From assembly GCF_004565475.1 (NCBI RefSeq), contig NZ_SRHX01000008.1:1-64000 (forward strand): a stretch of DNA of 64,000 bases, read 5' to 3'. Both the position numbers and the translations under genes were made by a program. The number at the start of each line of letters is the position of its first letter. The stretch's first letter is position 1. Under the pieces are notes generated by a model that saw only the letters and a list, made by a program, of their open reading frames with translations, was not told the origin of the DNA and made no database searches. The stretch is from Lonepinella koalarum. GTDB lineage: Bacteria > Pseudomonadota > Gammaproteobacteria > Enterobacterales > Pasteurellaceae. This document shows positions 1 through 57,032 of this stretch, piece by piece.

Positions 1-180
1 ATTCGTGTTAACAGAGATATGCTTAGGCTTTCTCAATGACGACATATTCAGGGTAGGACATACCCGTAGAGCTTGTGAAGTGAATATCGTTAGATGTCAG
101 CAACAAGAACCCACCGAGAGTAGCCCCTGAAAGGGGGAGCTAGTAGGAATCCCCGTCCTTTAGGGCAGGGAGGATGTCAA
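1..180 (+). mobile_element. Right end of an IS200/IS605-family insertion sequence (partial)
   Basis: The first 180 bases hold the end of a TnpB-like reading frame followed by about 50 bases with two compact GC-rich hairpins, AGCCCCT/AGGGGG near 122-138 and one around CCCCGTCC/GGGCAGGG at 151-170, and a terminal GGATGTCAA. This arrangement (tnpB 3' end, subterminal hairpin, end without inverted repeats) is typical of IS200/IS605 elements, which transpose as single strands through TnpA. The rest of the element lies left of the window. The boundary at 180 is inferred from similarity to known right ends and not from a comparison with an empty site. Confidence 0.75.
2..130 (+). CDS. tnpB: TnpB-like RNA-guided nuclease, C-terminal fragment (5' end outside window)
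   Basis: An open frame enters the window at base 2 and stops at TGA 128-130. Its last residues read VGHTRRACEVN, then QQQEPTESSP, which matches the usual C-terminal tail of IS605-type TnpB (GH-x-ACE...QEPTE). TnpB is the accessory protein of these elements and works as an RNA-guided nuclease, ancestral to Cas12. The catalytic RuvC residues and zinc finger lie outside the window, so intactness cannot be judged. Only about 42 codons are visible. Confidence 0.7.
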   Translation, partial: FVLTEICLGFLNDDIFRVGHTRRACEVNIVRCQQQEPTESSP

Positions 181-196
181 CTAACCAGTTACCGAA
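122..196 (+). ncRNA. Candidate 3' end of a TnpB omega/reRNA scaffold plus guide segment
   Basis: In TnpB-bearing IS elements a guide RNA is transcribed through the 3' end of tnpB and the right end, and the guide is the flanking DNA just outside the element. Here the two hairpins at 122-170 and the end at 180 would form the scaffold 3' part, and the guide would begin at 181 (CTAACCAGTTACCGAA). This is inference from the family; the sequence shows only the hairpins and the element end. Confidence 0.4.
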
Positions 197-246
197 ACCA
201 AAACCTGTGAAGAATTACGCAGCACGGTAAAATTAAGGCAAAATTG

Positions 247-273
247 ACCGCACTTTAACAGGTGCGGTTTTTT
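247..273 (+). terminator. Intrinsic terminator carrying an uptake-signal core
   Basis: ACCGCAC (247-253) and GTGCGGT (262-268) form a 7-bp stem with an 8-base loop followed by a run of six T. The left arm continues into CTTT and so carries a perfect DNA uptake signal core. It lies between the insertion-sequence end and the first gene of the integrated element, insulating the two. Confidence 0.7.
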
Positions 274-317
274 ATTATCAAAATTTTGTATCAACCCAAC
301 TAAACAAGGAAACCCAC

Positions 318-950
318 ATGATTAAACTTCATTTTAACATCGCCCTACTCAAGGCAGCTAATTTAGCGACAGCCAAAGATTATGACCCTTTTCTTAAAGG
401 GGTTTACGTCAATCTAGCGGATTTAAGTTTACAGGCGACAAACAGATACATCGCCTTTATCTCTAAACCTGAATCACTTTCACTCATCGAAGGCGAACGC
501 AAAGGTGGCTTTGTATTACCATCTGAACTCGTCAAGCAGATTCTTTCTGTCAAAATTGATAAGAAAATATCAGAAGAACATACTCTTTATCTTGAATTTG
601 ACCCAGATTCACAGGAAATCACCGCCACGATTAAATCAATGACGTTAAAGAGTCAAGCGACACAAGAACGATTTCCAAGCATTGCTAATGTCTATGTAAT
701 AACGCCATTGTTATTACAATCAGATGGAAATATACAAGTTTGTTATTACACGCCTTACTTGAAAATCCTAGATAACATGCTCAAAGCCCTAAGTATTATA
801 CCGACTATTGGTGCTGACAAAGGTGTGCGACTTCATTTTGGCGAAAACAAAACTATTGCAGAGTTTCCCGATAATATTGCTCAATTGGTAATTATGGGCA
901 TGCAAGATAATGAAACCCCTAACAACTGGCAATATCAATTAACTAAATAA
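318..950 (+). CDS. Possible DNA sliding-clamp-like protein of the integrated element
   Basis: A 210-residue protein. Residues 10-80 run LLKAANLATAKD, then a GVYV strand, a region around LQATNRY, and GGFVLPSELVKQIL, the same order as in a DnaN (DNA polymerase III beta) domain, where ATDGHR is followed by a strand and an IPxK-xx-EL helix. The C-terminal AQLVIMGMQ resembles the clamp ending in which a hydrophobic strand precedes a methionine-rich turn. A full bacterial clamp has about 366 residues, so this would be one or two clamp domains. It leads a tight string of element genes (11 bp to the next). Clamp-like proteins in phage modules may recruit or decoy replication factors. The assignment is fold-level inference and a plain unknown phage protein is the alternative. 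Confidence 0.45.
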   Translation: MIKLHFNIALLKAANLATAKDYDPFLKGVYVNLADLSLQATNRYIAFISKPESLSLIEGERKGGFVLPSELVKQILSVKIDKKISEEHTLYLEFDPDSQEITATIKSMTLKSQATQERFPSIANVYVITPLLLQSDGNIQVCYYTPYLKILDNMLKALSIIPTIGADKGVRLHFGENKTIAEFPDNIAQLVIMGMQDNETPNNWQYQLTK

Positions 951-10349: not shown

Positions 10350-10420
10350 TACCGTATTAGATATTATGAAAACAAAATAAAAGTAACTAACCACGACCAC
10401 AAAAAATAGATTTAAAATTC

Positions 10421-10454
10421 ACCGCGGTTTCTTCAACTTAACTAAAACCGCGGT
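10421..10454. terminator. Bidirectional terminator between LysR and uxuA
   Basis: ACCGCGGTTT (10421-10430) and AAACCGCGGT (10445-10454) form a perfect 10-bp stem. The genes on either side converge, so the hairpin can serve both. The arm resembles the uptake signal but reads CGCGG and does not match its core. Confidence 0.75.
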
Positions 10455-10472
10455 CAAATTTTCGTCAATATT

Positions 10473-11657
10473 TTACATTTCAAAATACACTTTCTTCAAC
10501 GCCAATTCCAATCCACGAAACTCCGCCAAACCACGCAACCGCCCAATAGCGGAATAACCCGGATTGGTTTTTTTCTGCAAATCATCCAGCATTTGATGAC
10601 CGTGATCGGGACGCATTGGGATTAATCTCGTGTCGCCATTGGCTTTGTGGCGATATTCTTCCGCAAGTAAGGCTTTTACTACGCCGAACATATCCACGTC
10701 CCCTGCCAAATGATCCGCTTCGTGGAAACTTAACGGATTATCTTCTCGTTGGGTGGCACGCAAATGAGCGAAGTAAATCCGATCGGCAAAACGTTCGGTC
10801 ATTGCAACTAAATCGTTGTCAGGACGAACACCGTAAGAGCCTGTACACATCGTAAAACCATTGGCAGCCAAAGGTTGCGTGTCCACATACCATTGCATAT
10901 CGTCAATAGTGGATACAATGCGTGGTAGGCCTAAAATCGGGCGTGGTGGATCGTCAGGGTGAACCGCCATACGAATCCCGACTTCTTGTGCCACGGGTAT
11001 AATTTCGTTTAAGAAATACGCCAAGTGAGTACGGAATTTTTCAGGGGTAATGCCGTTGTAGCGATCCAGTTGAGCCTGAAATTCTTCCAATGTGTAGCCT
11101 TCTTCTGCCCCTGGTAACCCTGCAATAATGTTTTTGGTGAGCGTCGCAATGTCGTCTGCTGTCATTTGTTCAAAATAGGATTGGGCTTGTTGACGTTCTT
11201 CTTCAGTGTAAGTCCGCTCCGCATTCGGACGTTTTAAAATATGCAATTCAAATGCCGCAAAGGCAATATGATCAAATCGCAATGCCTTTGAACCGTCTGG
11301 CATTTCATAAGCTAAATCGGTTCTCGTCCAGTCCAACACGGGCATAAAATTGTAGCAAACCGTATCAATCCCACATTGAGCGAGATTGCGTAAGGTCTGT
11401 TTATAATTATCAATCCACGTTTGAAAATGGCCTGTTTGGGTTTTGATTTCTTCGTGAACTGGCACGCTTTCTACTACTGACCACGAAAGCCCAGCTTGCT
11501 CAATCACGGTTTTGCGTTTTTCAATTTCGTCCACTGTCCACACTTGCCCATTGGAGATATGATGCAAAGCCGTTACAATACCTGTTGCCCCTGCTTGGCG
11601 GATGTCGGAAAGGGAAACGGGATCATTAGGGCCGTACCAACGCCATGTTTGTTCCAT
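10473..11657 (-). CDS. uxuA: Mannonate dehydratase
   Basis: A 394-residue TIM-barrel enzyme that converts D-mannonate to 2-keto-3-deoxy-D-gluconate, the fourth step of glucuronate breakdown. The N-terminus [11 protein letters not shown] and segments around [23 protein letters not shown] and RPDHGHQM are hallmarks of UxuA and contain the conserved metal-binding His, Cys, Asp residues. Length equals the E. coli enzyme (394). ATG follows AAGGAGTTATCT. It lies 20 bp downstream of uxuR on the same strand, so the regulator and enzyme form an operon divergent from the rest of the uronide genes. Confidence 0.97.
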
Positions 11658-11677: not shown

Positions 11678-12433
11678 TTAATTTAACCCCACTGACACAG
11701 GATTCACATTAAACAAAAAACCATCAAAATTCGGATCTTCTACATCCGAGAGTTCAAACAGTTTTTGTTTTACGTTTTCCAAATGTTGCCACATGGCTTT
11801 TTTCGCCAGTGCAGGATCTTTTCGTTGTATGCTGGTTAAAATCGCTTCGTGATCTTTTAACCACATTTGGCGATATTTATGATCGCTAATATGTAAATGT
11901 AAGCCTTTCCACATCGGATTATTGCGGTATTTCCACAGTTCTTTTTGCAGATTGATTAATACTTCATTTTGGGTAATTTCCGCAATAGCACTGTGAAATT
12001 CTTCATCTTCGGAATAATCTTCATCATTTTGCTCAAGAGTAATTCGCTCACGACTTAAAATATCTTTTAAGCGTAAAATATCATTGCGGCTCGCCTGAAT
12101 CGCCGCAAATTCTGCAATGCTACTTTCTACCAATTGTCGAGCTTGTAATAATTCGAAAGGCCCCACATCCGCATATTCATAGTTATCATCATTTTGTGCC
12201 ATTACTTTAGGTGAAGCGATGACATATACACCTGATCCTTTACGCACGGAAACCAGATCGTCTAATTCCAACATAATAATGGCTTCACGGATGACCGTGC
12301 GACTTACATTCATCAGTTCTGCTAAATCACGTTCGGGAGGTAAACGGTCGCCCACTTGATAAACACCATCAACTAGCTGTTGTTTTAATATGGCTCCGAT
12401 TTTTTTATAGGAGCGTGAAATCTCTTGTAGCAT
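11678..12433 (-). CDS. uxuR: GntR/FadR-family regulator of hexuronate genes
   Basis: A 251-residue repressor. Residues 8-75 are the GntR winged helix ([20 protein letters not shown] then [20 protein letters not shown]), and residues 95-235 form an all-helical FCD ligand domain with conserved D/H metal positions ([15 protein letters not shown]). This is the layout of E. coli UxuR and ExuR, which bind fructuronate or galacturonate. The start follows TTAGGAGGAAAT. Its position beside uxuA, plus several ATTGG/CCAAT palindromes in the divergent spacer, supports local regulation and autoregulation. Confidence 0.92.
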
Positions 12434-12470
12434 ATTTCCTCCTAAGTTTTCAAAATCCTTATTAGGTATA

Positions 12471-12487
12471 AATTGGTATAACTAATT
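12471..12487. promoter_or_regulatory. UxuR-like operator before uxuR
   Basis: AATTGGTATAACTAATT is an imperfect palindrome close to the ATTGGTATACCAAT consensus known for E. coli UxuR/ExuR. It lies 38 bp upstream of the uxuR start codon, where binding would autoregulate uxuR-uxuA. The assignment rests on motif similarity. Confidence 0.55.
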
Positions 12488-12557
12488 CGGCATTTTTGTC
12501 TTTTCTTGTTTTATTTTACTTGTTTTTATTATTTAAAAAAGAGAATTTTTATAAAAA

Positions 12558-12573
12558 CGTGATCTACATCACA
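12558..12573. promoter_or_regulatory. CRP-cAMP binding site, uxuR side
   Basis: CGTGATCTACATCACA matches TGTGA-N6-TCACA in nine of ten key positions. It is one of two CRP sites in the uxuR/SDR divergent spacer, implying that both arms of the uronide locus are under catabolite control. Confidence 0.75.
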
Positions 12574-12584
12574 AAAACTTAATT

Positions 12585-12598
12585 ATTGGTGGACCAAT
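12585..12598. promoter_or_regulatory. UxuR-like operator, central
   Basis: ATTGGTGGACCAAT is a palindrome with perfect ATTGG/CCAAT arms, matching the UxuR/ExuR consensus. It sits between the two CRP sites. Confidence 0.6.
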
Positions 12599-12607
12599 TT
12601 TAAGAAA

Positions 12608-12623
12608 TGTGATCTAGTTCACA
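12608..12623. promoter_or_regulatory. CRP-cAMP binding site, SDR side
   Basis: TGTGATCTAGTTCACA has both TGTGA and TCACA half-sites with the canonical six-base spacer. It lies about 105 bp upstream of the SDR start codon, in the range for activation of that operon. Confidence 0.8.
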
Positions 12624-12667
12624 TTTTTTTGTTTCGAAATAGTATAGAATTTTTTATGTTTTTAGCT

Positions 12668-12704
12668 ATAGGTATACCAATTACATAATATTGGACAACC
12701 AGTT
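12668..12704. promoter_or_regulatory. Two UxuR-like operators before the SDR operon
   Basis: TAGGTATACCAATTA (near 12668-12683) keeps the GGTATACC core, and ATTGGACAACCAGTT (12690-12704) keeps ATTGG and an imperfect partner. Both lie just before the SDR ribosome site, a position suited to repression. Spacing of about 22 bp between centres suggests binding on one face of the helix. Confidence 0.5.
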
Positions 12705-12728
12705 CAAAGAAAATTTAGGAGACAACCA

Positions 12729-13577
12729 ATGACAAATATTGCTATGAACCACAATTTTAATAACAAAGTAATTGTAATAACTGGCGCAGGCGGTGTGCTT
12801 TGCGCCTTCTTAGCCAAACAGCTTGCGCATACCAAAGCACATATCGCTTTATTGGATATTAACCTTGATGCTGCAAACCTTGTGGCACAAGAAATTAACC
12901 AAGCAGGTGGCAGTGCGAAAGCCTATCAAACCAATGTGCTGGATTTAGCCAGCATTCAAGCGGTGCGCGATCAAATCGCAGCCGATTTTGGCACTTGCGA
13001 CATTTTAATTAACGGCGCAGGCGGTAATAATCCAAAAGCAACCACAGACAATGAATTTCATACCACTGATTTAGCTGAAGGGGTAAAAACCTTTTTTGAG
13101 CTCGATAAAGCAGGTATTGAGTTCGTATTTAACCTTAACTATCTCGGCACATTGCTTCCTACGCAAGTGTTTGCCAAAGATATGCTTGGTAAAGATGACG
13201 CAAATATCGTCAATATTTCCAGTATGAATGCCTTCACGCCATTAACCAAAATCCCCGCTTATTCAGGTGCGAAAGCAGCAATTAGTAACTTCACGCAATG
13301 GCTGGCGGTGTACTTCTCTAAAGTCGGCATTCGTTGTAATGCAATCGCTCCTGGCTTTTTAGTCAGTAATCAAAATCGTGCATTGTTATTTGATCAAGAC
13401 GGCAAACCAACCGCACGCGCCAATAAAATTCTCACCAACACACCAATGGGTCGCTTTGGTGAACCAGAAGAGTTGCTTGGTGCATTGCTCTTTTTAATTG
13501 ATAGCCAATATGCCAGCTTTGTAAATGGCGTGGTTGTACCTGTTGATGGCGGATTCTCAGCCTATAGCGGAGTTTAA
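12729..13577 (+). CDS. SDR-family oxidoreductase, probable D-fructuronate reductase
   Basis: A 282-residue short-chain dehydrogenase. The nucleotide-binding turn reads TGAGGVLC, the NAG-equivalent is NGAGG, and the catalytic set is S (VNISSMN), Y and K (PAYSGAKAA). A C-terminal VPVDGGFSAYSGV is typical. E. coli uses the unrelated long-chain enzyme UxuB for fructuronate to mannonate; no uxuB is in this locus, while every other step from glucuronate to KDG is, so this SDR is the natural candidate. H. influenzae has a similar SDR next to its uxuA genes. It starts the operon behind TTAGGAGACAACC. NAD(H) rather than NADP(H) use is not decided from sequence. Confidence 0.85.
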   Translation: MTNIAMNHNFNNKVIVITGAGGVLCAFLAKQLAHTKAHIALLDINLDAANLVAQEINQAGGSAKAYQTNVLDLASIQAVRDQIAADFGTCDILINGAGGNNPKATTDNEFHTTDLAEGVKTFFELDKAGIEFVFNLNYLGTLLPTQVFAKDMLGKDDANIVNISSMNAFTPLTKIPAYSGAKAAISNFTQWLAVYFSKVGIRCNAIAPGFLVSNQNRALLFDQDGKPTARANKILTNTPMGRFGEPEELLGALLFLIDSQYASFVNGVVVPVDGGFSAYSGV

Positions 13578-13578
13578 A

Positions 13579-14391
13579 ATGCAAGAGTTTCAACCTAAAC
13601 ATAACATTATTGTGTGTGTGGATTCCGATGGTTGCGTAATGGATACGATGAATATTAAGCATTACGAATGTTTCGGGCCTATTGCCGTTGATGTATTTCA
13701 AATTACCGATCGCGAACGCTTTTTAACAATTTGGAATAAAGTGAATTTATTTTCTGCCACGCGTGGAACAAATCGTTTTAACGGTTTAATTTTTACCTTA
13801 CAAGAATATGGCTATAACAAAGATTTTAGCCAATTAACCCAATGGGTAAAAACAACCAATGAATTATCTAACGGTTCATTAAAACGTGAAATTGAAAAAA
13901 ATTCTAGCCCTGATTTATTACTTGCTTTGCAGTGGTCGGAACAAGTCAATAGTGCTATTAAGAATTTAACAATGGAAAATGCATTATTTAAAAATGCAGG
14001 TCGATCATTGGCTATATTAAAAAACTTTGCTGATATTGCGGTGGTGAGTTCTGCCAATAATGAAGCGATTGAAAAAGAGTGGTCGGAATATGATGTTCTT
14101 CAATATACCGATTTAGTTTTTGGACAAAATGAAGGTTCAAAAGCACACTGCTTGAAATTGATTAAACAATTAGGTTATAAAAAAGTGTTAATGGTCGGGG
14201 ATTCCCCAGGGGATTATTCTGCAGCACAAAAAGCAAATACTTATTTTTATCCAATTTTATTTAATTTTGAAAATGAATCTTGGGATAAATTGGTACTAGA
14301 AGCTTTCGGAAAGTTGAAATTTAATTTATTCGATGAAAACTATGCTAATGAATTATTACAAGCATTCAATCAGAATCTTAATCAACATTAA
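13579..14391 (+). CDS. HAD-superfamily hydrolase, putative sugar phosphatase
   Basis: A 270-residue cytoplasmic protein. The start is ATG 13579, one base after the SDR stop; a longer frame from 13525 lies inside the SDR gene and has no ribosome site. HAD motif I is VCVDSDGCVMDT (nucleophile D15, acid D17), motif II VVSSAN, motif III lysine around GSKAHC, motif IV VGDSPGDY. The order and a helical cap between residues 25 and 145 define a C1-cap phosphatase. In this context it may remove phosphate from a sugar-1-phosphate or recycle a dead-end phosphorylated uronate. The substrate is unknown. Confidence 0.85.
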   Translation: MQEFQPKHNIIVCVDSDGCVMDTMNIKHYECFGPIAVDVFQITDRERFLTIWNKVNLFSATRGTNRFNGLIFTLQEYGYNKDFSQLTQWVKTTNELSNGSLKREIEKNSSPDLLLALQWSEQVNSAIKNLTMENALFKNAGRSLAILKNFADIAVVSSANNEAIEKEWSEYDVLQYTDLVFGQNEGSKAHCLKLIKQLGYKKVLMVGDSPGDYSAAQKANTYFYPILFNFENESWDKLVLEAFGKLKFNLFDENYANELLQAFNQNLNQH

Positions 14392-14409: not shown

Positions 14410-16170
14410 ATGTCTGTCGATTTAAAAGCCAAACCCTTTTATTTAACGGATGAAGATATTCAATGGGTAGAAAAAACCATTGCAAATATGAGCCTTGAAG
14501 AAAAAATTGGGCAATTATTTGTCAATATGGGCTCAAGCCGTGATGAACAATATTTAAAAGATGTCGTAAATAAATATCATATTGGCGCAGTGCGTTATAA
14601 CCCTGCAAGCGCTGCTGAAGTGTATGAACAAAACCGTATTTTACAAGAAAATAGCAAAATTCCGTTGTTAATTTCTGCCAATATTGAAGCTGGTGGCAAT
14701 GGCGCTTGCACAGACGGCACAGAAATTGGCGTGCAAGTGAAAATTGCTTCAACCAATGATCCAAAATGGGCTTATGAAATGGGACGTGTGGGCGGCTTAG
14801 AAGCAGCTGCTGTCGGCTGTAACTGGTGTTTTGCCCCGATTGTGGATATTAACTACAACTGGCGTAACCCGATTATATCTAACCGCGCCTTTAGTCAAAA
14901 TCCTGATCAAGTGTTAGAAATGGCACTTGCCTATATAAAAGGGGTGCAAGAGCACGGCATTTTACCTGCGGCAAAACACTTCCCAGGCGACGGCGTTGAT
15001 GAACGCGATCAACATTTATCATTCAGCATTAACAGCTTTTCTTGCGAAGAATGGGATAAAACTTTCGGCAAAGTTTATCAAGGTTTAATTGATGCTGGTT
15101 TACCCTCTATTATGGCAGGGCATATTCATCAGCCCGCCTATGAAAAACATTTTAATCCAAATTTAACCGATGAAGAATGTTTACCAGCCACATTATCCAA
15201 AGGGCTGATTACCGATTTATTACGTGGGAAATTAGGTTTTAATGGATTAGTGGTAACCGATGCCAGCCATATGGTTGCAATGACTTCATCAATGAAACGT
15301 AGCGAAATGTTACCAACCAGTATTGCCGCAGGTTGTGATCTGTTTTTATTCTTCAACGATCCTGATGAAGATTTCCAATATATGTTAGACGGTTATAAAA
15401 ATGGCATTATTACCGAACAACGTTTAACTGATGCACTAAGTCGTATTTTAGCTTTAAAAGCAAAATTAGGTTTACATAAAAAAGCCAAAACCGAAATTCT
15501 ACAGCCAAAAGAACAAGCACTTGCACAAATTGGTCTGGCTGAAAATAAAGCTATTTTTAGTGAAGTTGCCGATCGTGCGATTACTTTAGTTAAACATAAA
15601 CAAGATATTTTCCCAATTACCCCCAATAAATATCCGCGTATTTTATTAGTGGATATTAAAGGTGTAGAAGGCGGTTTTGGCAAAATGATCGCAGGGAATA
15701 ATCGAAAAGCAACTGAAGTATTACAAGAACAATTAAGAGAACAAGGTTTTAACGTTGAAATCTTTAAATCACCGATGGAAAACATTGCCCAAATGTCGGG
15801 GGAAGAACAGATTAAAACAATTCGTAGTGTATATGCTGCCAAACGCCCAATTTCAGATTTGGTAAATAATTATGATTTGATAATCAATGTGGCAAATGTG
15901 AATGCCAGCACAGGGCAACGAATTATTTGGCCAGCAAGTAAAGGTACACCTGATATTCCTTTTTATGTACACGAAATTCCAACCATTTTTGTTTCGGTAC
16001 AATGCCCATTCCATTTAGCCGATGTGCCACAAATGAAAACTTATATTAACGCCTATGATTCCAAACCAGCCACATTAGCGAAATTAGTGGAAAAACTAAT
16101 GGGCAAATCGGAATTTAAAGGAATTAGCCCTGTTGATGTTTTCTGTGGGTTTAACGATACACATATCTAA
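14410..16170 (+). CDS. Glycoside hydrolase family 3 enzyme, NagZ-like, cytoplasmic
   Basis: A 586-residue two-domain GH3 protein without signal peptide. The barrel domain has the substrate-binding KHFPGDG (189-195), followed by D200 and H202 at the spacing of the Asp-His catalytic dyad that defines the NagZ (beta-N-acetylhexosaminidase) branch, and the nucleophile D284 in VVTDASHM. Residues from about 370 on form an alpha/beta sandwich domain, as in the long Gram-positive NagZ proteins. Beta-glucosidases of GH3 lack the dyad. Sitting between HAD and a GPH transporter in a uronate locus, it should cleave an imported uronic acid-containing glycoside. Some dyad-type enzymes act as phosphorylases, which would fit the HAD neighbour. 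SD is AGGAGATAAGAA. Confidence 0.88.
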   Translation: MSVDLKAKPFYLTDEDIQWVEKTIANMSLEEKIGQLFVNMGSSRDEQYLKDVVNKYHIGAVRYNPASAAEVYEQNRILQENSKIPLLISANIEAGGNGACTDGTEIGVQVKIASTNDPKWAYEMGRVGGLEAAAVGCNWCFAPIVDINYNWRNPIISNRAFSQNPDQVLEMALAYIKGVQEHGILPAAKHFPGDGVDERDQHLSFSINSFSCEEWDKTFGKVYQGLIDAGLPSIMAGHIHQPAYEKHFNPNLTDEECLPATLSKGLITDLLRGKLGFNGLVVTDASHMVAMTSSMKRSEMLPTSIAAGCDLFLFFNDPDEDFQYMLDGYKNGIITEQRLTDALSRILALKAKLGLHKKAKTEILQPKEQALAQIGLAENKAIFSEVADRAITLVKHKQDIFPITPNKYPRILLVDIKGVEGGFGKMIAGNNRKATEVLQEQLREQGFNVEIFKSPMENIAQMSGEEQIKTIRSVYAAKRPISDLVNNYDLIINVANVNASTGQRIIWPASKGTPDIPFYVHEIPTIFVSVQCPFHLADVPQMKTYINAYDSKPATLAKLVEKLMGKSEFKGISPVDVFCGFNDTHI

Positions 16171-16186: not shown

Positions 16187-17611
16187 ATGCGTTTTAATAA
16201 TGGCAATAGAGAATTTGGCTTAATAGATAAAATTGCTTATCTGTGTGGTGATTTAGCCAATGATTTAACTTTTATTATGGCAGCATTTTTCTTAATGCTA
16301 TTTTATACTAATGTGCTTGAAATTCCTGGTTATGTAGTGGGTTTATTATTTTTAAGTGCGCGAGTTATTGATGCATTTACCGATATTGGTATGGGACGTT
16401 TATTAGATACATCAAAAGCAGGTAAAGATGGGCGTTTTAGAACATGGATTAAACGTGCATCACCTTTTGTTTGTATTACTGGTTTTTTAATGTTTGTTTA
16501 TGTCGTTAAAGATTGGGCGTATCCACTAAAATTAGCGTATGTGGTTGTAACTTATATTTTATGGGGCAGTTTTTCTTACACCGCAGTAAATATTCCTTAT
16601 GGATCAATGGCAACCGTTATTAGTGCTAAACCTGAAGATCGCGCAGCATTATCTGGATTTAGAGCAATTGGTGCAAATATTGCCATTTTATTGATAACCT
16701 CTATTGTGCCATTACTTATTTATAAAGAAATTGATGGTAAACAGGTTATTCAGCCAGAAATGTTTACTGTTATTATGGCGGTCTTTACGATTTTAGCTTT
16801 TATTCTCTACCAAATTTGTTATCGTTTTACGATTGAAAGAATTAAATTACCGGATACAGAGCGTCAACATAGCAAACAAAGTTGTGTAAAAGATGTTACG
16901 AGTATTTTTTCAGGGATTAAAAGCAATCGTCCATTACAGATTTTTATTCTTGTCGCTATTATTTTACTGCTCTCTAGTTTATCTACAGGCACATTAAATC
17001 CTTATTTATATATTGATTATTTTAATAATAAACTTGGTTTATCGATTGGTGGTATTATTCCTGTTGCCTGCACGTTTGCCATGGTGCCTTTTGCACCAAT
17101 GTTAGTAAAACGTTTTGGTAAAAAAGAGTCCGCTGCGGTGGGAATGCTGATTACTAGTGTTATTTATTTTGCCCTGTTTATTTTACGTGTAGAAAATTTA
17201 TGGGCTTATCTTGTCTTGATTACAATTGCTGCCTTAACCTTTAACTATTTTATGATTATTATTTGGGCGTTTATCGCAGATATTATCGATAATCAATATT
17301 TAAAAAGTAATGTGCGTGAAGATGGCACAATCTATTCTGTTTATTCCTTTGCACGTAAACTGGGACAAGCACTGGCTGGCGGTTTAGGCGGTTTTGTATT
17401 AAGTTTTGTCGGCTATACCGCAAATGTACCTAAACAATCCCCTGAAACATTAGAGCATATTTATAATGTTGCCACGCTTATTCCTGCTATTTCAGCCTTG
17501 TTGATTTTTATTATATTGCAATATTGGTATCCATTATCTAAATCGATGGTTGAAAAAAATATGAGTGAACTGGCAATGCGTACATTACAACCCAATCAAA
17601 ATAATCAATAA
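16187..17611 (+). CDS. GPH-family (glycoside-pentoside-hexuronide) cation symporter
   Basis: A 474-residue inner-membrane protein with 12 predicted helices. The N-terminus ([18 protein letters not shown], then [15 protein letters not shown]) and the loop [20 protein letters not shown] (a D-x-x-M-G-x-x-x-D motif with GRFR) are diagnostic of the GPH family, whose members include UidB (glucuronides), MelB and XynB-linked transporters. It imports a glycoside with sodium or protons. Its neighbours, GH3 and UxaC, predict a uronic acid-containing di- or oligosaccharide. It is 16 bp after the GH3 gene with its own ribosome site TAGGAGCTTTAT. Confidence 0.9.
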
Positions 17612-17622
17612 GGAAAAATAAA

Positions 17623-19026
17623 ATGAAAACCTTTATGAACGAAGATTTTTTATTATCCACTGATACAGCCAAACGCTTATATCACGATTATGCTAAAAAT
17701 CAGCCAATTTATGATTACCACTGCCATTTATCGCCAAAAGAAATTGCTGAGAATCGCCAATTTAATAATCTAGCGGAAATTTGGCTAGAAGGGGATCATT
17801 ATAAATGGCGTGCATTGCGTACTGCAGGCGTTGATGAATGTTTTATTACAGGCAATGCCAGCCCTTATGAAAAATATCAAGCGTGGGCGAAAACCGTTCC
17901 ACTTTGTATTGGCAATCCCATTTATCACTGGACGCATTTAGAACTGCGCCGTCCGTTTGGCGTTAGTAATACCTTATTTAATCCGCAAAATGCCGAAAAA
18001 ATTTGGGCGCACTGTAATGAGTTATTACAACAACCTGAATTTTCAACGCGCGGTATTATGCGCCAAATGAATGTAAAAATGGTCGGCACAACAGACGATC
18101 CGATTGATGGTTTGGCATACCACAAACAGATTGCGCTCGATCCGACTTTCGATGTGGAAGTAACACCAAGCTGGCGACCAGATAAAGTATTTAAAATCGA
18201 TTTGCCACAGTTTGCCGACTATATCGAAAAATTAGGCGAACTGACTAATATTGAGATTCGACGTTTTGCTGATTTGCAGCAAGCCTTATTACAACGCTTG
18301 GATCATTTCGATCAACACGGTTGTAAATCTGCCGATCACGGCATTGAAGTGGTGCGTTTTGCGCCAATTCCTGATGAAAAAGTATTAGATCAAATTTTGC
18401 AAAATGGTTTGAAAAAATCGGCGCACACTGAGCTTGAAATTGCCCAATTTAGCAGCGCAATTTTGGTTTGGTTAGGCAAACAGTATCACGCGCGTAACTG
18501 GGTGATGCAATATCACATTGGTGCAATTCGCAATACGAATAGCCGAATGTTCCGTTTATTAGGCGCTGACAGTGGTTATGATTCCATTGGTGATCGCATT
18601 TTCGCTGAACCTTTGGCTAAATTGCTTGATGCGATGGATCAAACCGATCAGCTACCGAAAACCATTTTATATTGCCTAAATCCACGGGATAACGAAATGA
18701 TCGCAAGCCTAATTGGCAACTTCCAAGGCGGTGGTATTGCAGGCAAAATTCAATTTGGATCTGGCTGGTGGTTTAATGATCAGAAAGACGGTATGGAACG
18801 CCAGCTGCAACAACTTTCGCAACTCGGTTTACTCAGCCAATTTGTCGGAATGCTGACCGATTCACGCAGCTTCTTATCTTATACTCGCCACGAATATTTC
18901 CGTCGTATTCTATGCGAAATGCTCGGAAATTGGGTTGAAAATGGCGAAGCACCGAATGATTTAGCATTACTTGGCAATATGGTAAAAAATATTTGCTTTA
19001 ATAATGCAAAAAATTATTTCAAATAA
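17623..19026 (+). CDS. uxaC: Glucuronate isomerase
   Basis: A 467-residue enzyme (E. coli 470) that isomerises D-glucuronate to D-fructuronate, and galacturonate to tagaturonate. The metal site motif YDYHCHLSP is at residues 31-39, and [20 protein letters not shown] and the C-terminal [18 protein letters not shown] are conserved in the amidohydrolase-fold UxaC family. It lies 11 bp after the GPH gene. It is the committing step that connects the GH3 product to UxuA through the SDR enzyme. Confidence 0.97.
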
Positions 19027-19037
19027 AGGTCATGAAT

Positions 19038-20174
19038 ATGAAAAAGACATTTACTATTTTTTTTAGCATTGTATTAGTGAGTCCTTCTGTTTTAGCGTGG
19101 AATGTTATTGATAATAAAGAGACAGGTACTAGATTTGATATTTATGGTGGCTTGAGTTTAAGTTATATTACGACTTCAACAAAAACAAGTAATGCAGCAA
19201 CGGATATTCGTACCAAAACCCATTATCATACACCTGTGCAAAATGATAGCACGCGTATCTATATGAATCTTCAACAATCAGTCGGTGGTGATTATTACTT
19301 ACGCCTTCACAATCAATTGCGTTTTGGCTCTACAACAGGTTATGCACATCATCATCGACATAATTTTGGTAAATTGTATTCTCATACTTTTTTTGGTGGA
19401 TTTGGTCATAAAATATATGGTGAATTTACTTATGGTAATCAGAATGTATTTACTGATTATATAAAACAAACTGATAAAGCCAATACACATTCTATTGCGG
19501 ACGGTTTACAACGTTCAGTTGAACGTAAAGTTTTCCAGTATGTTAATAAAGGTGCAATTAAAGGTTTAGAATTTGGTGCATATTATGGTGGAGCAGAATC
19601 ACTTTCTGTTTTTCAAACAAAATTGGCGAATAAGCGTAAAAATGTTTGGGGTTTAGGTGTTATTCATAAACAACAAATTGATGATCGTCAAAAATATGTG
19701 TTAGCTGTTGGTTTTAGCCAAATGCGTAATCACGTTACCAATACTGATCGTACTGGGCGTACTACAATTTATAGTATGGGGTCATCTTATAGTTATGATA
19801 AAACCACTATCGCATTCGATTTAGATCAACGTCTTACCAAATCAATTAAATCTTTAACAGAAGATCGCACCGAAACTGAAGCACGTTTTTTAATTTGGCA
19901 AGATCTCACGCCACAATGGGCAATTTATTCTCAATATATGGATACCCATAACAAAGTGAAACATTTGCTAAATGATGCACCAACCTATAAAGGCAAAGTA
20001 AAAAAATTTAAAATAGGAACAGAATATTATATTATTCCTAAATATGTTCGTGTTGCATTAGAATGGCAAACTATTCGAACAAAAACTTACGAGCCTTCAA
20101 CCGCAAATTCAAGCAGTGAATATAAGCGTACTCGAGAAAATGCAACTATTTTAGGACTTCGGATAATTTACTAA
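19038..20174 (+). CDS. Outer-membrane porin of the uronide operon
   Basis: A 378-residue protein from ATG 19038 (an ATG six bases earlier is only two bases from the AAAGG ribosome site). Residues 1-20 are a signal peptide ending SVLA. The mature part has alternating beta strands (FDIYGGLSLSYITTS and similar) and ends LGLRIIY, with the C-terminal aromatic residue needed for BAM insertion. Length matches a 16-stranded porin of the OmpP2 type more than the 12-stranded KdgM. Its place between uxaC and eda implies a substrate-selective pore for the uronide imported by the GPH protein. Confidence 0.75.
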   Translation: MKKTFTIFFSIVLVSPSVLAWNVIDNKETGTRFDIYGGLSLSYITTSTKTSNAATDIRTKTHYHTPVQNDSTRIYMNLQQSVGGDYYLRLHNQLRFGSTTGYAHHHRHNFGKLYSHTFFGGFGHKIYGEFTYGNQNVFTDYIKQTDKANTHSIADGLQRSVERKVFQYVNKGAIKGLEFGAYYGGAESLSVFQTKLANKRKNVWGLGVIHKQQIDDRQKYVLAVGFSQMRNHVTNTDRTGRTTIYSMGSSYSYDKTTIAFDLDQRLTKSIKSLTEDRTETEARFLIWQDLTPQWAIYSQYMDTHNKVKHLLNDAPTYKGKVKKFKIGTEYYIIPKYVRVALEWQTIRTKTYEPSTANSSSEYKRTRENATILGLRIIY

Positions 20175-20192: not shown

Positions 20193-20831
20193 ATGTTATA
20201 CACTACCGAACAAATTATTGAAAAATTAAAAACACTAAAAGTCGTCCCTGTTATCGCCGTGGATGATGCACAAGATAGTTTACCACTTGTCAAGGCCTTG
20301 TCTGACAATGGCTTGCCTGTGGCAGAAATCACATTCCGCTCGGCAGCAGCGGAAGAATCTATTCGATTGGTGCGTCAGCATTTTCCTGATGTGTTAATTT
20401 TAGCAGGTACTGTGTTGACCGCAGAACAAGTGGTCGCTGCTAAGAACGCAGGAGCAGATGCCATTGTTACTCCAGGATTTAACCCAAAAATTGTACAACT
20501 CTGTCAAGATCTAGGTTTGCCAATTACCCCCGGAGTGAATAATCCAATGTCCATTGAAGCTGCATTAGAATTTGGTATCACCGCAGTAAAATTTTTTCCA
20601 GCAGAAGCCAGCGGTGGGGTGAAAATGATTAAAGCCTTACTTGGTCCTTACGGCAATTTGCAAATTATGCCAACAGGGGGAATTTCACCGACCAATATTA
20701 AAGACTATCTAGCCATTTCAAATGTGGTTGCTTGTGGTGGATCTTGGTTTGTAGAAAAAGCCTTGATCAAGCAGAAAAAGTGGGATGAGATTGGGCGGTT
20801 GACGAAGGAAGTTGTAGAGTTGGTAAAATAA
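20193..20831 (+). CDS. eda: KDPG/KHG aldolase
   Basis: A 212-residue class I aldolase cleaving 2-keto-3-deoxy-6-phosphogluconate to pyruvate and glyceraldehyde 3-phosphate. Catalytic E45 (AEITFRS) and Schiff-base K133 (AVKFFPAE) lie at the same numbers as in E. coli Eda. TPGVNNP is the typical phosphate-binding loop. It ends the uronide operon, 18 bp after the porin, and needs the product of a KDG kinase, which is not encoded in this window. SD is TTAAGGAAAAAC. Confidence 0.95.
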   Translation: MLYTTEQIIEKLKTLKVVPVIAVDDAQDSLPLVKALSDNGLPVAEITFRSAAAEESIRLVRQHFPDVLILAGTVLTAEQVVAAKNAGADAIVTPGFNPKIVQLCQDLGLPITPGVNNPMSIEAALEFGITAVKFFPAEASGGVKMIKALLGPYGNLQIMPTGGISPTNIKDYLAISNVVACGGSWFVEKALIKQKKWDEIGRLTKEVVELVK

Positions 20832-20842
20832 TAGTTTGGATT

Positions 20843-20878
20843 GCGGTGAAAAATATTTGTTTTTTTCACCGCGGTTTT
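20843..20878 (+). terminator. Terminator of the uronide operon
   Basis: GCGGTGAAAAA (20843-20853) pairs with TTTTTTCACCGC (20861-20872), then a GGTTTTATT tail. It lies between eda and the convergent mnmA gene and may act for both strands. Confidence 0.7.
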
Positions 20879-20883
20879 ATTGA

Positions 20884-22035
20884 TTATTTAACTTGTGTTT
20901 CAATCACCCCCCCCCCCAGACAAATTTCTCCTTGATAAAATACCGCACTTTGTCCTGGGGTGACGGCGATTTGTGGCTCGTCAAATATCACTCGAATATT
21001 ATCATCGTTGATGGGGATAATTTTGCAAGGAATATCGCTTTGACGATAGCGAGTTTTTACTGTGCAACGTAACGGTTGGCGGATAGGTTGGCGATCTACC
21101 CAATGTAGTTGGCTGGCAGTCAAACCCATGGAAAGCAGGGCGGAATTATCATGTCCCTGAGCCACGATCAATACATTGTTAATTAAGTCTTTTTCAACCA
21201 CGTAGAAAGGATCTTCGCTTAATCCTTGTACACCGCCAATTCCTAAGCCTTTGCGTTGTCCTAAGGTGTGATACATTAACCCATCGTGATGACCGACTAA
21301 CTTACCGTCCACTGTACGAATTTCACCAGGTTGAGCAGGCAAATAACGAGCTAAGAAATCTTTGAATTTGCGTTCGCCGATAAAACAAATGCCAGTAGAA
21401 TCTTTTTTCTTCGCGGTGACTAAGCCGAGATCTTCCGCTATAGCTCGTACAATTGGTTTTTCAATATCACCAACTGGGAACAGGCTTTGTCCAACTTGTT
21501 GATAGCTTAAGGTATAAAGGAAATAGCTTTGATCTTTATTGCTATCTAAACCACGTAATAATTGAGCATGCTCATCATCACCTGAACGGCGAACATAATG
21601 CCCTGTAGCGATATAATCTGCACCTAGGTCTTCTGCCGCATATTCTAAAAAGGCTTTGAATTTAATTTCTTTGTTGCACAAAATATCAGGATTTGGCGTG
21701 CGACCAGCTTTATATTCAGTTAAGAAATGTTCGAACACATTATCCCAATATTCCGCTGCAAAATTGATTTTATGTAAGTGAATACCTAGTTTATCGCAAA
21801 CTGCTTGTGCATCGGCTAGATCGGCTGTAGCAGTACAGTAGTCGGTATCATCATCTTCTTCCCAGTTTTTCATAAACAAGCCTTCCACTTGGTAGCCTTG
21901 TTGTTGTAGGATAAAGGCGGATACGGAAGAATCTACGCCACCTGACATACCCACGATGACTTTTTTGCTTTGGTTGTAAGTGAGCTGATCGGCAGTGAGT
22001 GGCGGAAAATGTGTGTTGTAAGTGATCGATTGCAT
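20884..22035 (-). CDS. mnmA: tRNA 2-thiouridylase
   Basis: A 383-residue enzyme that thiolates U34 of tRNA-Lys, Glu and Gln. The PP-loop SGGVDSS follows VIVGM; catalytic cysteines lie in DYCTA/QAVC and GICFIGER; the TGHY and NPD-x-LCN motifs are present. I start it at ATG 22035; the frame continues upstream to a GTG inside a hairpin repeat, which is unlikely as a start. The last residues ICLGGGVIE are encoded by a run of 11 G, a slippage-prone tract. In E. coli mnmA precedes hflD-purB; here a 13-kb island lies between. On its other side it keeps the nqrM-apbE-nqr neighbourhood. Confidence 0.96.
20907..20917. repeat. Poly-C tract (11 C; poly-G in mnmA)
   Basis: Eleven consecutive C lie in codons for the GGG of LGGGVIE near the C-terminus of MnmA. 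Mononucleotide tracts of this length are rare outside phase-variable genes. Gain or loss of one base would replace only the last eight or so residues. Confidence 0.9.
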
Positions 22036-56025: not shown

Positions 56026-56099
56026 TAAGCGCAATAGTACTTAAGCTATTTCTATATGTCAACAAGAAAACGGTACCAAAAATTGATTTAATTCATTTA

Positions 56100-56115
56100 T
56101 GTGATCTAGATCACA
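56100..56115. promoter_or_regulatory. CRP-cAMP binding site
   Basis: TGTGATCTAGATCACA is a perfect palindrome matching the full CRP consensus. It sits in the 307-bp spacer between the dehydratase and the divergent IclR gene, about 134 bp from the dehydratase start, so the aldonate operon is probably catabolite-controlled. Confidence 0.85.
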
Positions 56116-56273: not shown

Positions 56274-57032
56274 ATGTACCATAAACCAACTGAGCGTGTT
56301 CTAAGTGTTTTTACACACCTTGCCAACTGGCGAGAAGGGAGAACTTTGACTGATTTGGCAAATAGTCTAAATATTCCCAAAAGTACTATTTCACCAATAT
56401 TGCAAGAAATGGTGTATCAAAATTATTTATATTTAGATAACCAAACAAATAAATATCATATTGGTATTACCACTCACGCAATAGCTTCTTATTATGATCC
56501 GCTCCAAGAAATATTTACTCATATTCAGCGAGAAATGAAAAATATTACAGCAAAAACAAATGAAATTTGTCAGTTGGGTATTTTAGAAGGTCCAAATGTG
56601 TTATATATTGCAAAAGAAGAACCAACAAGTAATTTAGAAATTCAAATTATTTCTTATGTTGGAAAACTAATACCCGCATATTGCACGGCCTTAGGAAAAT
56701 CACTTCTTGCAGGTTATGACATATCTCAATTAAAAGATCTGTACCCCAATGGGCTGTTAGCCCAAACAGAAAATACAATTACAGATATAAATAAGTTGAA
56801 AAAACAATTAGATAATTTCTCAGTAGAAAATATTTTTTATGAGGAAGAGGAAGTAACACCTTATCTATGTTGCTACGCTACACCAATTAATCTGCATAAT
56901 AATCAGAGAATAGCCTTAAGTATCAGTTTGCCTGTTTTTAGAGTGAATGAAACAAAAAAAACGTTAATCAAAAAACTTTTACTACAGGCGAGAGAAAAGT
57001 TTAATGTAATTAATAAAGAATTATCAGTTTAA
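56274..57032 (+). CDS. IclR-family regulator (YjhI-like)
   Basis: A 252-residue regulator. The N-terminal winged helix is at residues 8-68 (RVLSVFTHLANWREGRTLTD, then IPKSTISPILQEMV), and the C-terminal effector domain begins near residue 85 and includes IPAYCTALGKSLLAG, the usual IclR block. It is divergent from the aldonate operon, as yjhI is in E. coli, and is the likely repressor binding the 56010 palindrome. AAGGTAAAAAT precedes the ATG. Confidence 0.9.
   Translation: MYHKPTERVLSVFTHLANWREGRTLTDLANSLNIPKSTISPILQEMVYQNYLYLDNQTNKYHIGITTHAIASYYDPLQEIFTHIQREMKNITAKTNEICQLGILEGPNVLYIAKEEPTSNLEIQIISYVGKLIPAYCTALGKSLLAGYDISQLKDLYPNGLLAQTENTITDINKLKKQLDNFSVENIFYEEEEVTPYLCCYATPINLHNNQRIALSISLPVFRVNETKKTLIKKLLLQAREKFNVINKELSV

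Follow-up and report, generated by a model that had tools for sequence, protein, structure and literature searches.

Introduction

In the UidA/GusA system, glucuronides are opened by a β-glucuronidase of glycoside hydrolase family 2 (GH2) that works with the UidB transporter. A symporter of the glycoside-pentoside-hexuronide (GPH) family beside the glucuronide-opening enzyme and the supply of UxaC and UxuA are traits that this system would share with the locus described here. The present work concerns an enzyme of another family and mechanism, a glycoside hydrolase family 3 (GH3) protein encoded among uronate genes of Lonepinella koalarum on a 64,000-nucleotide stretch of DNA (contig NZ_SRHX01000008.1, positions 1 to 64,000; referred to as the window). 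GH2 proteins of the UidA kind share clusters with such GH3 genes in some loci. Taken together, the evidence inclines us slightly towards regarding the GH3 protein as a cytoplasmic retaining β-D-glucuronide-cleaving phosphorylase of the BglX lineage, whose neighbour, a protein of the haloacid dehalogenase (HAD) superfamily, would remove the phosphate.

Within GH3, just two characterised phosphorylases, Nag3 and BglP, are named in excerpts of a 2022 review, which also state that the His/Asp dyad admits anionic phosphate (PMC8950772). Furthermore, SN243 is described as a β-glucuronidase of this family in the titles of its PDB entries and in an excerpt of PMC10176489. Phosphorolysis of an acidic sugar is represented by a GH94 enzyme which, judged by the title of its report, acts on a glucosyl-glucuronide, so that glucose would be the sugar transferred. 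Two open-licence papers mention a "glucuronide phosphorylase" only by citing this GH94 enzyme, and the excerpts of PMC12943147, PMC5788505 and PMC9369180 add nothing about a GH3 glucuronide phosphorylase; none was found in the open-licence literature searched, by which its absence is not proven.

Results and Discussion

Lineage of the GH3 Enzyme

The GH3 gene, the residues considered below and the adjacent HAD gene are located as follows:

14410..16170, plus strand: GH3 His/Asp-dyad enzyme, predicted β-glucuronide phosphorylase; ATG start, 586 amino acids (aa)
14593..14595, plus strand: R62 codon (R62 closes strand 60-62), candidate carboxylate contact
15007..15015, plus strand: codons of the dyad D200-Q-H202 (general acid/base)
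15259..15270, plus strand: D284 (nucleophile position) to H287
13579..14391, plus strand: HAD protein of about 270 aa, predicted glucuronate-1-phosphate phosphatase, directly upstream of the GH3 gene; PF13419, 34.9 bits against a cut-off of 23.8

The GH3 product matches PF00933 over residues 29-348 (3.7e-68; 230.7 bits, family cut-off 27), and no second GH3 Pfam domain was scored in the 586-aa protein by the Pfam scan at E<=0.001. In the AlphaFold model (mean pLDDT 90.3, pTM 0.91), a further, mostly confident alpha/beta part follows residue 370, and the two top structural matches span model residues 2..581 (5VQE) and 2..585 (5VQD). The model thus indicates a second domain, as in BglX and Bacillus subtilis NagZ, and bears out the extra domain beyond the barrel that an earlier note on this DNA had proposed. 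Moreover, D200 and H202, which that note had placed after KHFPGDG, occupy these positions in KHFPGDGVDERDQH. They form the D-x-H of the loop after KH(F/W)PG that characterises the Asp/His-dyad group of GH3, and both residues, like D284, are invariant in 106/106 aligned rows, these being sequences fetched as relatives of the window GH3. From our reading of the N-terminus, a signal peptide is not evident.

By sequence, 5VQD is the closest solved structure (8e-129, residues 5-584), followed by B. subtilis NagZ (1.8e-51). Closest by fold are 5VQE (Z 58.9, root-mean-square deviation 2.0, 547 aligned residues, 42% identity), 5VQD (Z 58.5) and NagZ (Z 49.6). Since 5VQD and 5VQE represent BglX/BglP, a β-glucoside phosphorylase of an uncultured bacterium, the nearest solved relative is a phosphorylase, and it is matched over almost the full length. 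Fold, length, the loop KHFPGDGVDxRDQHL and the nucleophile position are common to both proteins, whereas BglX/BglP has M at the place of R62, R at the place of N64 and T/Q at the places of S286/H287.

NagZ (YbbD, LpqI) likewise has the Asp-His dyad and the barrel in common with the window GH3. However, the latter scores 116.2 bits in the NagZ equivalog NF003740, below the cut-off of 207, carries GDG where the NagZ of the same genome carries GHG, and lies in another genome context. This NagZ, encoded on another contig and containing KHFPGHGHVIADSH, reaches 496.6 bits in NF003740; a third GH3 protein of the genome corresponds to a 656-aa frame (L003). NagZ orthology was ruled out by the low equivalog score together with the separate NagZ, and the NagZ-type label of the earlier note had to be abandoned in favour of BglX as nearest solved relative. 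The equivalog for BglX of the E. coli type, NF011678, was not reached either (77.3 bits, cut-off 666). A simple β-glucosidase identity was considered and rejected; grouping with β-glucosidases that have a C-terminal acid/base glutamate, which would have spoken against the dyad assignment of the earlier note, did not occur among the closest matches. SN243 (PDB 7QE1/7QEA) has the GH3 fold and the predicted sugar in common with the window GH3, but is distant from it (18% identity, Z 35.6), well under BglX and NagZ.

The HAD Partner

The open frame of the HAD protein extends from 13525 and overlaps the upstream reductase gene, and the ATG at 13579 is the likelier start. DSDG and GDxxxD, which we take to be motifs of the phosphatase kind, are present in 36/36 HAD homologues and provide the DxD pair and the metal motif of such enzymes. 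The structural model (pLDDT 92.4) matches the phosphatase AlnB and β-phosphoglucomutase about equally (Z 18.3 and 17.6, respectively). The β-phosphoglucomutase model TIGR01990 gave no match to the window HAD at E<=0.001, whereas the pgmB product of locus L073 scores 255.3 against a cut-off of 189.4. An identity as β-phosphoglucomutase was rejected and a phosphatase favoured, because of this missing match and because the C6 carboxylate of a uronate leaves the phosphate no place and forbids a shift from position 1 to 6. Two invariant arginines of the HAD protein, R62 and R66, lie between its first and second motifs and might hold the carboxylate.

Distribution of the GH3 Genes and Split of Their Partners

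Within the Pasteurellaceae, 10 of 140 genomes, including that of the window, contain a GH3 match at E<=1e-60; the other nine proteins are 76-77% identical to the window GH3, and Testudinibacter sp. (L026) is among the carriers. A scan of species genomes yielded 44 loci in Bacillus, Arcanobacterium, Lachnospiraceae, Clostridium, Paenibacillus, Arthrobacter and others. The proteins of Bacillus and Alkalihalobacillus reach 72-76% identity to the window GH3, close to the value within the Pasteurellaceae, and this suggests that the gene has been transferred between phyla.

In a first set of loci, GH3 genes were labelled HAD-linked if the centre of a HAD gene lay no more than about 2.4 kb from their own, and mutase-linked if a β-phosphoglucomutase gene lay within about 4 kb. 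L072 and L074 (mutase about 4 kb away) were accordingly labelled mutase-linked and L071 (5.3 kb) was not, while L027, L048 and L057, with HAD genes 3 to 8.5 kb away, remained unlabelled. This resulted in 33 HAD-linked and 8 mutase-linked genes. In a tree of 67 rows, a 51-row clade with SH-aLRT 100 contained all 33 HAD-linked genes, and the eight mutase-linked genes were all placed outside it, as was 5VQD. L026 (same protein as L022) and L014 (GH3 in two frames) were omitted from trees and from the uronate-gene counts given below.

In order to lessen query bias, 391 and 398 genomes were drawn evenly from two classes, both centres being known carriers. GH3 genes of this kind were found in 14 and 19 of these genomes, respectively, at 39 places, namely 27 with R62, one with a gap at this position and 11 with M, L or T; the place with the gap is included in the 28 R62 places of this sample. 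A HAD gene lies within about 1.5 kb of 19/28 R62 places and of 0/11 others (Fisher p 1.5e-4, relatedness ignored). The mutase neighbour found with many BglX-like relatives, which can serve as an informal mark of that group, shows the opposite pattern (0/28 R62 places, where HAD occurs instead, against 4/11 others; Fisher p 0.004, relatedness ignored). In a tree of 102 rows, from which L097, L108, L109 and L130 were omitted because their genomes were already represented, one change suffices to account for the two labels (51 rows HAD-linked, 12 rows mutase-linked), compared with an average of 11.2 changes for shuffled labels, none of 500 shufflings being as low. All 51 HAD-linked rows and none of the 12 mutase-linked rows belong to one clade of 75 rows (SH-aLRT 98).

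The HAD gene is located upstream of the GH3 gene in the Pasteurellaceae loci and in L034-L040, and downstream in L013, L031, L032, L050, L059 and L061, so the pairing outlived rearrangement. One operon, L057, holds both kinds, encoding an R62 GH3, a GH2, a HAD, a second GH3 lacking R62, a mutase, UxuA and a short-chain dehydrogenase/reductase (SDR).

Residues Distinguishing the Clade

Within the 75-row clade, R62 is present in 73 rows (two gaps) and H287 in 72, and S286, F315 and N316 are preferred over the T, N/T/A and K/R of the BglX-like branch. The remaining 23 rows of the ingroup, including 5VQD, show M, L or T at position 62, lack H287 and carry R64 (23/23), which occurs in only two rows of the clade, L053 and L055. 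In the 106-row alignment, 11 new rows without R62 were assigned to the BglX-like group by residue 62 itself, and this grouping was then checked on the tree.

In the AlphaFold model, R62 is the last residue of strand 60-62 and N91 comes after strand 87-90, these being successive barrel strands by sequence order. For RmNag3, an excerpt of PMC6987092 describes bonds to the sugar in subsite -1 from an Asp of strand c and from a Lys-His pair of strand e. By analogy, N91 and K189-H190 would be the counterparts of these residues, which makes an arginine at position 62 near the sugar plausible. R62 is the leading candidate for holding the carboxylate.

On plasmids of Rhizobium and sphingomonads, a distantly related group of dyad-type GH3 proteins (L015, L075, L076, L077) combines R62 with D91; their genes are located beside ABC transporter or sulfatase genes.

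Uronate Genes and GH2 Proteins in the Neighbourhood

Uronate context was counted where two or more of UxaC, UxuA, UxuB, ManD, KdgA and KdgK were encoded in the stretch read. In the first set it was observed for 20/49 R62 loci (one or more such genes in 27) and for 0/11 others; the latter number is 10 without L033, a GH3 truncated at the N-terminus with a gap at position 62, and the two GH3 genes of L057 were counted once, as R62. In the class sample, from which five of the 39 places were omitted (L097, L108, L109, L130, and L131, which lies within the stretch of L148), uronate context characterises 17/23 R62 regions (18 with at least one gene) and 0/11 others (Fisher p 8.7e-5, relatedness ignored). 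The BglX-like branch lies apart from uronate genes, with the exception of L057.

GH2 proteins encoded in the first set contain the motif N-x-K-G, presumably the uronate motif of β-glucuronidases, in 16/16 cases at R62-type loci and in 0/2 cases at other loci. The GH2 proteins of L020 and L056 exceed the β-glucuronidase equivalog (811.8 and 911.5, cut-off 544), that of L039 reaches no cut-off, and that of L072 has its highest score in a β-galactosidase model, under the cut-off. A GH2 protein of UidA size (592-610 aa) shares the cluster in L019, L020, L025, L048, L052, L056, L057 and L061; of these, the two that were scanned (L020 and L056) were confirmed. In some Pasteurellaceae (L019, L020, L025), GH3, HAD, the UidA-size GH2 and a TRAP-type transporter are encoded in one cluster (names from clustering).

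Co-Occurrence of GH3 and HAD in Whole Genomes

Whole genomes were screened for HAD genes, mainly genomes picked for having no HAD beside the GH3 gene. Among those with a GH3 protein having H287 and R62 or a gap at position 62, 21/22 encode the HAD protein, comprising 12/13, a further 8/8 and genome G152, in which a second GH3 gene, encoding R62 and H287, lies directly next to the HAD gene. The one exception, G144, contains a GH3 without its first 102 residues. The HAD gene lies in the GH3 region in G140, G146, G151, G152, G787, G831, G849 and G547 (6 kb), and elsewhere in the genome in the remaining positives. Where R62 occurs without H287 (L047, L053, L055), the HAD is encoded in 0/3 genomes, and where only GH3 proteins without R62 were detected, an intact HAD is encoded in 0/12, two of which, G155 and G156, were not checked for other GH3 copies. 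In genome G439, whose only detected GH3 lacks R62, contig C69 contains the HAD gene in two adjoining pieces, either a decayed gene or a misassembly.

Proposed Reaction Sequence and Alternative Explanations

Based on these results, the following route is proposed. A β-glucuronide would be imported by the GPH symporter and bound with R62 holding the carboxylate of the sugar. D284 would form the glycosyl-enzyme with H202/D200 as the acid and, because the acid/base is a histidine and not a carboxylate, phosphate would attack this intermediate, releasing β-D-glucuronate-1-phosphate. As uronates lack a free hydroxyl at C6, the β-phosphoglucomutase of the sister branch cannot work on this product, and the HAD protein would strip off the phosphate to give free glucuronate. 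The latter would then pass via UxaC, the SDR reductase and UxuA to 2-keto-3-deoxygluconate (KDG), and further via the KDG kinase encoded on contig C11 and the 2-keto-3-deoxy-6-phosphogluconate (KDPG) aldolase. The β-glucuronide as substrate is well supported, and para-nitrophenyl (pNP) glucuronide (pNP-GlcA) is the leading candidate substrate, not pNP-GlcNAc or pNP-GalNAc, whereas phosphorolysis is no more than probable, as there are hydrolases among the GH3 enzymes with the dyad. It is ranked above hydrolysis because both branches are tied to enzymes of the HAD superfamily that would act on a sugar-1-phosphate and the nearest measured relative is a phosphorylase. The earlier note's combination of a phosphorylase with an adjacent HAD phosphatase thus gains support from lineage and gene neighbours, while phosphorolysis itself is a prediction.

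Several observations weigh against this interpretation. The partner split is a single evolutionary event, which makes the counts interdependent, and of the 17 class-sample loci linked to uronate genes, 12 (L155-L166, GH3 rows L116-L127) represent one clade (SH-aLRT 98). In L057, the second GH3, without R62, sits between HAD and mutase and was labelled mutase-linked; the other label breaks the one-change result. A mutase gene is near only 4/11 non-R62 places within 1.5 kb and 6/11 in wider regions, the stretch read showed no uronate gene at 22/49 first-set loci with R62, some of which lie on short contigs, and at 5/23 of the class sample, and R62 is also present in 4/4 outgroup rows (Rhizobium, sphingomonad plasmids) without uronate genes or HAD. 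Moreover, the HAD fold leaves phosphatase versus mutase undecided (Z 18.3 versus 17.6), and the GH3 as a plain UidA replacement was rejected because a UidA-size GH2 shares the cluster in eight loci. Finally, a phosphatase acting after a phosphorylase forfeits the energy gain: no ATP is saved and the net reaction equals hydrolysis.

One alternative is a plain dyad-type β-glucuronidase that frees glucuronate directly, with the HAD protein fulfilling another role in the pathway or clearing traces of glucuronate-1-phosphate that arise from a side reaction with phosphate of the cell. Such an enzyme would deliver the free glucuronate that UxaC requires, and SN243 shows that the GH3 fold can be a β-glucuronidase (PMC10176489, as excerpted). 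In excerpted reports on NagZ-type enzymes, LpqI yields GlcNAc and not GlcNAc-1-phosphate, without phosphorolysis (PMC6572805), and RmNag3 is hardly affected by phosphate (PMC6987092), so that both act as hydrolases with phosphate present. Furthermore, the R62 members L047, L053 and L055 have no HAD; L053 and L055, which sit with UxaC, UxuB and ManD, carry R64 like the BglX-like branch, and all three may use another phosphatase or be hydrolases. However, the nearest characterised relative of the window GH3 is a phosphorylase, part of the sister branch (12 rows) is tied to β-phosphoglucomutase, which fits a β-sugar-1-phosphate product, and a HAD in 21/22 genomes with R62 and H287 is very constant for a bystander. 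Plain hydrolysis is accordingly considered unlikely, though a serious competitor.

The same phosphorylase/phosphatase route might instead serve another or modified uronic acid, for example a β-galacturonide, a 4-O-methyl-glucuronide or GlcA in a glycosaminoglycan or plant oligosaccharide. Clusters containing both the GH3 and a β-glucuronidase-like GH2 at several loci suggest two substrates, and UxaC is generally not specific for glucuronate. We consider this improbable in view of the companions UxuA and mannonate oxidoreductase in the window, UxuA or ManD in other loci (altronate enzymes were not searched for in relatives), the location of the genome's altronate-dehydratase-family protein on another contig, and the lack of any GH88 hit in the genome. 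Still harder to sustain is a NagZ-like β-N-acetylglucosaminidase or a β-glucosidase residing in a uronate operon by chance. The dyad and the fold in common with B. subtilis NagZ (Z 49.6) would suit it, but the equivalog scores of the window GH3 (116.2 against 207 for NagZ, 77.3 against 666 for BglX) and of the genome's own NagZ (496.6) oppose it, positions 62, 64, 286, 287, 315 and 316 are unlike those of the BglX-like branch, and two or more uronate genes occur in 0/11 class-sample regions of that branch against 17/23; it is thus very improbable.

Glucuronate Locus and Its Control Region

Besides the genes for GH3 and HAD, the locus comprises:

10473..11657, minus strand: UxuA mannonate dehydratase; TIGR00695, 725.6 against a cut-off of 199.55
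11678..12433, minus strand: UxuR/ExuR-like GntR regulator; PF00392 and PF07729; NF007588, 279 against 442, below cut-off
12434..12728, no strand: divergent control region between uxuR and the SDR gene, with palindromes and CRP-like sites
12558-12573, no strand: CRP-like candidate site CGTGATCTACATCACA in the control region
12585-12598, no strand: palindrome ATTGGTGGACCAAT, candidate site in the control region
12608-12623, no strand: CRP-like candidate site TGTGATCTAGTTCACA in the control region
12668-12681, no strand: palindrome ATAGGTATACCAAT, candidate site in the control region
12729..13577, plus strand: SDR-type D-mannonate oxidoreductase (fructuronate reductase); NF006132, 454 bits against 281
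16187..17611, plus strand: GPH-family cation symporter; TIGR00792, 290.1 against 231.35
17623..19026, plus strand: UxaC glucuronate isomerase; NF002794, 687.8 against 387
19032..20174, plus strand: putative outer-membrane porin of 380 aa with an apparent signal peptide, role suggested by its place
20193..20831, plus strand: KDPG/KHG aldolase; NF004325, 295.7 against 241

The uronate locus recognised in the earlier note is substantiated by the models for UxuA, SDR, UxaC and KDPG aldolase, all above their cut-offs. The seven genes from SDR to aldolase are co-directional with gaps of 1 to 18 bases (HAD start taken as 13579), which makes one transcript likely. For the GPH symporter, the best-scoring single-function model is the glucuronide transporter NF007353 (250.3, below the cut-off of 528). 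The putative porin has no match in Pfam or NCBIfam, and its PDB comparison gave one chance-level match and nothing useful.

A second hexuronate locus on contig C11 of the same genome (L168, L167) encodes an altronate-dehydratase-family protein, a KDG kinase and a KDPG aldolase. The presence of UxuA inside the operon and of the altronate-dehydratase-family protein on the other contig points to glucuronate. With the KDG kinase of L032 as query no match was found in the L. koalarum genome, whereas that of L020 matched contig C11, with one stop flagged inside the match and an intact 300-aa open reading frame (ORF) at this place. The sole GH2 of the genome is an open frame of 1033 aa, which corresponds to LacZ size, and no GH2 of UidA size and no GH88 were found there. 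Similar DNA was not found in E. coli genomes.

The control region contains one perfect ATTGGT-GG-ACCAAT palindrome and a second one with one mismatch, as well as one perfect CRP-like site and one with a single mismatch; the sites and their binders are putative. Across the window, ATTGGTNNACCAAT was matched 9 times against 6.35 expected, with 19/100 shuffles giving as many, hence without excess over chance; its two best matches (0 and 1 mismatch) both lie inside the control region. The consensus AAWTGGTNNNACCAWTT at three mismatches gave 50 matches against 27.55 expected and was rejected as too loose for use. A further perfect CRP-like site, TGTGATCTAGATCACA, is located at 56100-56115 between an ORF ending at 56065 and an ORF starting at 56274. 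Inverted repeats occur at both ends of the uronate locus (10401-10474 and 20823-20892), with ACCGCGGT in three of their four arms; they possibly represent terminators or paired uptake-signal-like sequences.

Conclusions

The clade described here belongs to a phosphorylase lineage of GH3, is predicted to be specific for glucuronides and has exchanged its partner enzyme; a β-glucuronidase of GH3, SN243, is already known. We see about an even chance that Pasteurellaceae, Bacilli, Clostridia and Actinomycetes possess a retaining β-D-glucuronide phosphorylase with a dedicated β-glucuronate-1-phosphate phosphatase, the partner mutase having been exchanged for a phosphatase of the same superfamily. 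If this is true, bacteria open glucuronides by a route other than the well-known β-glucuronidase UidA, and a phosphorylase lineage has shifted to a sugar whose 1-phosphate cannot reach glycolysis via a mutase. A branch specific for glucuronides would bring a new donor sugar and, in bacterial metabolism, an unusual sugar phosphate, and such a route might escape screens and inhibitors designed around GH2 enzymes. Moreover, the clade would provide a natural test of the histidine acid/base as the mark of a phosphorylase and would pose the puzzle why phosphorolysis precedes a phosphatase.

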